Assembly (NCBI RefSeq): GCF_026015625.1
Contig: NZ_JAPDVG010000001.1
Coordinates: forward strand, 2,125,001 to 2,189,000
Length of the DNA stretch: 64,000 nucleotides
DNA from: Segatella copri
GTDB lineage: Bacteria > Bacteroidota > Bacteroidia > Bacteroidales > Bacteroidaceae
Reading direction: 5' to 3'
In this document: positions 52,683 through 54,832 of the stretch, piece by piece
How the letters are laid out: each line of letters begins with the position of its first letter
Numbering within the stretch: position 1 is the stretch's first letter
Program-made: the position numbers and the translations under genes
The notes under the pieces: generated by a model
The model's database searches: none
Told to the model about the DNA's origin: nothing
Seen by the model: the letters and a program-made list of their open reading frames with translations, nothing else

Positions 52683-54832
52683 TTATAGTATTTCAAACGA
52701 TTGATAATATTCTATTTTACACAAATCGGGTAACAATCCCTTTTCTTCATCATATCCTTTGTTCGGAATGACAAAAGGATGCGACCCCTTATTGAGCTGA
52801 TCAAGATTTCTATGTGCAATGGAATGATAGCTTACAGGTATTTCCATTTCAATTCTTTCCAATCCATTGGCACATAAGTATCTGTCTTTATCTTCTTCTG
52901 TAATACAAACAGCAGAATTGATGTCAAGCGTTTCCAGTAGCGCTGATTTCGGATGATGACAAAGTGCCTTTAACACCCATTTTCCTTCCAAGAACACCAC
53001 ACCAGTAAAGTCTATATTCTGAAAGTCAATCTTTGGATATACCTTATCTATCATTTCCTGAACATGACATTCCTCCATGATGTCACCACTGTCTGGCAGG
53101 ACCCTGAAAGTATCTTTCAGAACATCCAGACTATAAGGAAGAGCTTCTTTATCATCTTCAGATGGTGCTATGACATATATCGGCTTGTAGTGTCCAATGG
53201 TATCTCTTGTACGCTTGCGATTAATTCGTCCAAAACGCTGTGTAAGAGCATCAATTGGAGCACACTCAGTAATCATTATATCAAAGCTGATATCAAGACT
53301 GACCTCTACTACTTGAGTGGAAACTACAATGCATGGAACGTTTTCTAATTGATTGAAGTCTTCACGCAACTTTGTTTCCAATTTAGCCCTGTCGCTTCGT
53401 TTGTACCTGCTATGCACAAGCATCTTCTTCACATCCGGATATAATTTTTCAATAAACTCATATAGTTTCTGTGCTCTTTTTACTTGATTACATACTATGA
53501 GAACTTTAGAATTGCTTTCGATTGCTGAGGCTATCACATCATAAGATTCTTTTTTATCATCGAGCTTGTAGATTTGATGTCTGTTAAATGATTGAAGCGT
53601 CAGAGAATCCAACTTTACCTCATAAACTGCATCAGCTCCACCCAATAGTTGAAGTATCTTCTGATACAATACTGTCGGCATTGTTGCCGTACCAACATGT
53701 ACCCTACACTCCAGTGCAACAAGAATTTCTATAATGCGTAGAACTATAGACTGCATAACATCAGAATAGGTGTGTATCTCATCGAGAATCACATCACAAC
53801 CTTTTAAATCCATAGCCATGGCCTCATATCCTTTGATACCAAAAACAACAGAGGCCATCTGGTGTGGAGTAAGGACCTTCACTGATGCACCAACATGACG
53901 CTGCATGATACTTTCTTCTATCTTACCGTCTTTCACTTTCAGATTAGAGGCTGCATGTAGAAGATGAACTTGAGCATTAGTATTACTCAAATCATTCTTT
54001 ATTCTATTATACATATATACATAGCATTAATTGATGCTTGAAAAGGCAGTGTATAGAAAACTCTTCCACGACAACGCCTCAACAAAAAATCAGTTTTTCC
54101 AGCTCCAGTTGGAGCCGTTACCAACGTATGCATTTTCTTACTATCCGAAGAAATCAATGATAAAGGATAGAGTTCACTTTGCCTATTGTAAAAAGACAGA
54201 TCAGGTTTGATGAAGAGTTTATCAAGCGGCATTTCAAATGCAGTCTCCATAGCAGAAGCCATGTGATCTGCCGCCATCAACAACCCTCTCCATTCAGAAC
54301 ATCCCTGTTTTCTACCATCACAATAGTCTATGACATATTCGTAATTTTCTTTTGCCTCTTCCAAAGAAACCTCATGAGTTTCCAAGCCAAGGCTTTCAAG
54401 AATATCAATGGCTATATGACTCCATTCCGAGAATAACTTTGAATGTTCCTTGAAGCAATCTGATGTATCATCTAAATCTAAAATGCCCAAATCCCGAACA
54501 TCTTTATACATAGATTTATGATGAGCTACAATCATATCTATCACAGCCTCTCTATGTTCCTGACATACCAACGACAGAAAGAACAAGGAAGCTATTTCAT
54601 GGCGAAAAACAGAGCCAGGCTTCTTCTTGTTTGTGGAAATCAGCGATTGCTGGAACACTGGACTTACCTTTCCGATGTCATGCAATAAAGCTCCTTCTAC
54701 CGCAATCTGTTCATCAAATCCTAAATGTTTAGCCATTACACGAGCGGTATCAGCAACATTCTTAAGATGCTGATACAAACAAACATATCCATTCTGCTCG
54801 CTTTTAGCTAATATTTCTTGATGAATATTCAT
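52683..54832 (-). pseudogene. cas3: cas3 nuclease-helicase, frameshifted
   Basis: A single HD-helicase gene is split into two frames. The first (to 53999) has the HD nuclease (His22, His51-Asp52 in ALLHDIGKVSP; VAHHKSMY) and Walker A APTGAGKT (residues 240-247). The second (54014 to 52683) has motif [10 protein letters not shown] and motif [14 protein letters not shown]. The break is a perfect tandem duplication of TATGTATA (54023-54016 and 54015-54008). With one copy the frame runs through as [13 protein letters not shown]. Restored length would be about 710 residues, usual for Cas3. As it stands the ATPase is separated from its P-loop, so interference is probably lost. The start at 54832 is preferred to 54865, which overlaps cas5. 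Confidence 0.9.

Follow-up and report, generated by a model that had tools for sequence, protein, structure and literature searches.

A tandem duplication of 8 bases in a type I-B cas3 gene is probably a private loss of function

In the stretch of 64,000 nucleotides that we analysed (the window), the cas3 gene of a type I-B CRISPR-Cas locus is broken by a perfect tandem duplication of 8 bases. We propose that this is a private loss-of-function allele, most likely recent, and not a maintained switch (probability roughly 0.75). Most likely, replication slippage duplicated the 8 bases in the cas3 gene of a Leyella stercorea-like gut bacterium. With the frame lost after the conserved QASINAMY, the locus would yield no full Cas3 and target degradation should be off, unless the genome has another cas3 outside this locus; Cas6 and Cascade (for crRNA production and target binding) and Cas1-Cas2-Cas4 would still be encoded. 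A recent break is plausible.

The duplication and the two pieces of cas3

On the plus strand, the unit TATACATA is present twice without a gap, at 54008-54015 and 54016-54023 (on the coding, minus strand, the unit is TATGTATA). Both a script scan and direct reading of the letters gave this result, and the 8-base periodicity stops exactly at the edges of 54008-54023. A general repeat search at minimum length 8 missed the pair, which the dedicated script and the letters show. The features of the broken gene are:

53999..54832, minus strand: cas3 upstream frame (N piece), 277 aa, with the HD domain, Walker A (APTGAGKT) and motif Ia (ORF list, profile matches)
54008..54023, minus strand: perfect tandem duplication of TATGTATA, at which the cas3 frame breaks (letters and script; unduplicated in 8 readable relatives)
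52683..54014, minus strand: cas3 downstream frame (C piece), 443 aa, from the DExH motif onward and including the second RecA domain, with a possible start ATG in the repeat (ORF list, profile matches)

The letters and the two frames thus bear out the original prediction that an 8-base unit present twice breaks cas3. The duplication splits the gene into 277 and 443 amino acids, with the N piece running from the ATG at 54832 to a TAA at 54001-53999, and the C piece from an ATG at 54014-54012 to 52683, both on the minus strand. The second ATG does lie inside the repeat, as had been predicted, and the two frames share a 16-base overlap. The Cas3 frame is abandoned right after the conserved QASINAMY (residue 272) and meets a stop five residues on; besides the frame ends, there is no second stop inside either piece. 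The intact Cas3 helicase-nuclease of a type I-B system is therefore missing from the locus, its frame being broken at 54008-54023.

Perfect 8-base tandem units are not rare across the whole window, which contains 3 of them, as compared to a mean of 1.05 and a highest count of 3 in 60 first-order Markov sequences. (In a cas3-sized stretch of the same composition, the expected mean is 0.046, from 2000 sequences.) What counts is the position of this unit at the frame break and its absence from the 8 relatives that are readable there.

In profile searches, the matches of the N piece are to Cas3 HD models and the beginning of the helicase model, and those of the C piece are to Cas3 helicase models over the remainder of the helicase. 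In an intact relative, LLHDIGK starts at residue 49, APTGAGKT at residue 240, an 11-residue motif at residue 262, and DEIHTYSD at residue 348; we take these to be the HD motif, Walker A, motif Ia, and the DExH motif. This would place the break between motif Ia and the DExH motif, in the first RecA domain, and two solved Cas3 chains, 8zns and 8g9u, can be aligned over the part that holds it. Because the split is inside this domain, neither piece is expected to hydrolyse ATP alone, so neither half should be an ATPase by itself. Interference has presumably been lost.

The rest of the type I-B locus

The neighbours of cas3 are:

55419..56081, minus strand: cas6 (Cas6b), open frame (profile match, frame check)
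54846..55406, minus strand: cas5 (Cas5b), open frame (profile match, frame check)
51363..52679, minus strand: cas8b, open frame (profile match, frame check)
50273..51340, minus strand: cas7b, open frame (profile match, frame check)
49700..50218, minus strand: cas4b, open frame (profile match, frame check)
48687..49733, minus strand: cas1b, open frame as listed with a TTG start; an ATG at 49703 matches the start in the relative L001
48422..48685, minus strand: cas2b, open frame (profile match, frame check)
43039..48207, minus strand: CRISPR array of 80 repeats of 30 bases and 79 spacers of 33-38 bases

The other cas genes had been described as intact, and each frame is indeed open to its stop. 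The best PADLOC model is of the b type for all seven neighbours (Cas6b, Cas5b, Cas8b, Cas7b, Cas4b, Cas1b, and Cas2b), which covers the type I-B gene set, and the best model for the Cas3 of the intact relative is Cas3b. As judged from its genes, the locus is a complete type I-B set except for cas3.

Beside cas6, at 56369-57352, is a gene for a protein with helix-turn-helix and IrrE-like (Peptidase_M78) parts, with a sub-cut-off match to the model of the spr1629 repressor/antitoxin. At 41402-41455, the 22-base unit GCTGAAGGAGTCGAATGCAGTG is repeated in tandem, and diverged copies of it follow outside this interval.

The array and its targets

The predicted count of 79 spacers is correct. From the orientation of the repeats, the leader probably lies above 48207, adjoining cas2. 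The repeat sequence shifts once along the array, from 58 leader-side repeats with CGCACC to 22 leader-distal repeats with TGTACC, so that two base changes occur at one step.

Eleven spacers (4, 20, 25, 26, 29, 31, 32, 33, 35, 38, and 46) have protospacers at 0-7 mismatches, in four loci: three phage records and one piece of a viral contig. A 5' CCN lies directly next to the protospacer for 11 of 11 of these phage-matched spacers. (Spacers 26, 31, 32, and 33 match two phages each; these were counted once, and their flanks agree.) The array therefore has phage-matching spacers with a consistent flank, and most of its spacers are without a known target: no protospacer at 0-7 mismatches was found for the other 68 in the sequences examined. 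We left spacers 2, 17, 24, 51, 55, 72, and 77 out of the count, as their matches have 10-17 mismatches; the discarded match of spacer 55 is in a phage, with the flank CAG. The spacer searches also gave a match in a Bacillus phage (H4) and a match in a Salinibacter plasmid (H5).

Spacer 4, which is near the leader, matches viral contigs exactly (33/33), with the flank CCG. Spacers 1 and 2 had no exact 22-base match in the viral contigs, which were scanned with spacers 1, 2, and 4. The CCN flank in 11 of 11 cases, together with the exact match of the leader-near spacer 4, suggests that adaptation worked with a regular flank up to the recent spacers. The adaptation side of this system looks sound.

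Relatives at the break site

We compared 32 relative loci, of which 8 came from a scan of genome contigs and 24 were matches from a search of 60 genomes. That search gave matches in 17 genomes, all but one of them distant (G013 at 63% identity; the others at 37% or less), and all 24 listed matches are in stop-free frames. The duplication is absent from all 8 loci that are readable at the site (L001 and L003-L009), among which L001 is the only close one; a search for the motif did not locate it in the remaining 24 of the 32. None of the 8 readable relatives contains the exact unit TATGTATA or a tandem 8-mer at the site, so they have kept no repeat tract there, as they would at a phase-variable locus.

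L001, from Leyella stercorea An906, is 97.7% identical to the window across cas3, the only gap being one of 8 bases. Its sequence at the site is AMYDRI, and its Cas3 frame is open over 713 aa from the same start, which agrees with the original prediction that one copy of the unit gives an uninterrupted Cas3. Another relative, L002, is 99.3% identical over its part of the gene and begins past the break site. After ATG TAT, L001 has GAT (Asp), where the second copy in the window runs into AAT (Asn). As compared to L001, then, the window's allele differs by the 8 bases and one G-to-A change. Because of this extra change, duplication alone cannot derive the window's allele from that of L001, and the one-base change came before, with, or after the duplication. 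Among 240 Cas3 proteins (the matches listed for both pieces), MYDR is found in 117 and MYNR in 2, and the pattern was not found in 45.

The two-unit state is known from a single assembled consensus, so it might be an error of assembly or consensus, or a minority variant that entered the consensus, with the organism itself having one unit. We consider this unlikely. The substitution relative to L001 at the site is what would be expected of a distinct allele. Also, a perfect tandem of 16 bases is easily spanned and read through by any read, and reads do not usually gain 8 bases by error.

The original prediction was of a reversible switch, in which gain or loss of 8 bases toggles interference while adaptation and crRNA production continue. 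The unit is a perfect tandem, its length is not divisible by three, and the gene around it is otherwise sound; toggling by slippage of short units also has precedents, as for the tetranucleotide of icaC in Staphylococcus aureus (PMC4117637, excerpt). Still, the prediction did not hold up, and we think that a switch is quite improbable here. The 8 readable relatives have neither the repeat nor a tract, and a two-unit protein or half-protein was not found among the matches listed from the protein collection (see below). As far as these 8 relatives go, with only L001 close, related strains are fixed at one state, which the original prediction had itself named as evidence against a switch. There are only two units, and two 8-base units are not a hypermutable tract. 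Our search of the open-licence literature, as judged by the titles listed, found no phase-variable cas3.

Cas3 in the protein collection

The C piece is 98% identical to the intact 713-aa protein P0122, which heads a cluster of 8091 members, and 96% identical to a second entry of the intact form, P0128 (176 members). For the C piece, 7998 candidates were scored, which gave 3696 matches; the collection may lack records from the window's own genome. Neither half had a near-identical half-protein among the best 120 of 236 matches (N piece) or the best 120 of 3696 matches (C piece), and the latter 120 include no protein that starts at the break site. We did not estimate frequencies from the cluster sizes of short proteins, because short proteins also arise where contigs end.

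Among the best 120 of 236 matches for the N piece, only P0008 and P0014 have at least 90% identity, and both end earlier. P0014 and P0011 are Cas3 proteins that a frameshift has broken elsewhere: the tail of P0014 is identical, and that of P0011 similar, to another reading frame of L001. (We had considered that P0014 broke in a homopolymer, and dropped this when the expected A-run was not found in L001.) P0008 and P0009 end in unmatched tails. P0007 (80% identical) belongs to another lineage and lies on a 26.5-kb contig. Its Cas3 sequence stops at codon 271, within 2 codons of the break in the window, and gives way to a foreign tail, which our searches did not identify. These other broken Cas3 proteins of the group would fit sporadic loss. 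We found no further cas3 loci in viral contigs.

The exit of P0007 so close to the same place, with a foreign tail, might hint at a transposon scar in the window: an insertion with an 8-base target duplication, whose element is gone and both of whose copies were kept. Target duplications of 8 bases occur in several IS families, and loss of an IS that leaves exactly both target copies is uncommon. Insertion sequences do inactivate cas genes (PMC10359306, excerpt). There is no element or remnant of one in the gene, though, as the only gap in cas3 relative to L001 is of 8 bases, and we regard a scar as very unlikely.

That both pieces are made, by reinitiation at the ATG in the repeat or by a ribosome hop over one unit, with some Cas3 activity left, is hardly credible: the frames do share 16 bases, and any tandem unit will by its nature supply matched take-off and landing codons, here the two ATGs, but the split is inside the first RecA domain, no protein among the matches listed starts at the site, and RNA folding predicts nothing unusual there (z = -0.56). 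For the same lack of a predicted structure, we rejected programmed bypass or frameshifting at the break.

A mosaic locus

The divergence between the window and L001 is uneven. The difference is 1.5-2.9% for cas5, the two cas3 pieces, cas8, and cas7, versus 28.8% for cas6, 10.6% for cas4, 15.9% for cas1, and 23.9% for cas2. In stretches of 150 bases, identity to An906 is about 98% across cas5-cas3-cas8-cas7 (91-99%), 66-67% in cas6, and 73-90% in cas1-cas2. The identity shifts sharply near 55450 and near 49950. These sharp borders suggest that recombination between lineages probably exchanged an effector block of 5.5 kb and left out cas6, the adaptation genes, and the repeat. Exchange of this kind could also restore an intact cas3 or carry a broken one. 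Reversal of the private loss, by slippage or by recombination of an intact block from another strain, would be possible in principle and occasional.

Relative to L001, pN/pS is 0.18 in the N piece (9 nonsynonymous changes) and 0.12 in the C piece (6), versus 0.09 in each of cas5, cas8, and cas7. This slight excess could reflect some relaxation in the cas3 pieces. With 9 and 6 nonsynonymous changes, there are too few to date the break.

Self-targeting as a possible motive

We also considered whether cas3 might have been lost because the array targets its own genome. As a stand-in for the window's genome we used G001 (97% identical over the flank, and by inference the same species). Spacer 56 (44570-44606) matches ftsX of G001 at 37/37, with the flank TAC, and spacer 69 (43723-43757) matches a GNAT acetyltransferase gene of G001 at 34/35, with the flank TTC; both spacers are leader-distal. 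As these targets lack a CC flank, they should be tolerated and would give no reason for the loss of cas3. One further match in G001 is weak (window 46852-46880, 86% over 29 bases, E 0.099). The first spacer search against G001 scored 40 of 70 candidates; three piecewise searches scored all of theirs, and one of the three gave no match. Matches in G003 are weak (71-74%), and at E 0.01 no spacer matches the window outside the array. With G001 as the stand-in, self-targeting is unsupported as a reason for the loss.

Between matching flanks, the counterpart of 42680-57560 in G001 (L041) holds genes for type I restriction (HsdM/HsdR-like) and for DNA methylases, and the C piece of cas3 finds no match in G001. 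By its gene content, 42680-57560 appears to be a variable defence region.

Comparison to known systems

Events of the kind of a private loss of Cas3 are already known. Insertion sequences have been documented to inactivate cas genes in nature (PMC10359306, excerpt), and loss of CRISPR function upon targeting of a beneficial plasmid has been published (PMC3784566, excerpt). The window shares with natural cas inactivation (by IS, point mutation, or deletion) a single lesion, an otherwise complete locus, and intact relatives; it differs in that the lesion is an 8-base tandem duplication instead of an IS or a large deletion.

Among type I-B systems of Bacteroidota, that of An906 (L001) has the same gene order (cas6-cas5-cas3-cas8b-cas7-cas4-cas1-cas2) and differs in that it lacks the duplication, keeps Cas3 intact, and has repeats of another sequence. 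Exact comparison found no spacers common to the window and L001, whose array was cut with an ill-fitting repeat pattern, which weakens this negative result.

Phase variation of icaC likewise changes the frame via gain or loss of a short tandem unit. There, according to the excerpted text of PMC4117637, isolates differ at the locus (9 of 103) and reversal was seen about once per 45,000 cell divisions, whereas the cas3 of the window has two units in one genome.

Implications

It is conceivable, at long odds, that in gut Leyella/Prevotella cas3 is repeatedly lost and regained via small indels and recombination of the effector block, with the array and adaptation kept, and that the window is a snapshot of this cycle. 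If so, these bacteria would pass through phases with interference off, in which they keep the memory and leave incoming DNA undegraded. If cas3 does toggle in this group, it would be a simple way to suspend immunity without losing the memory. If cas3 has only been lost, as we propose, then this is another case in which a long array does not prove that immunity works, and this locus could be scored as complete in surveys in which cas genes are counted from similarity.
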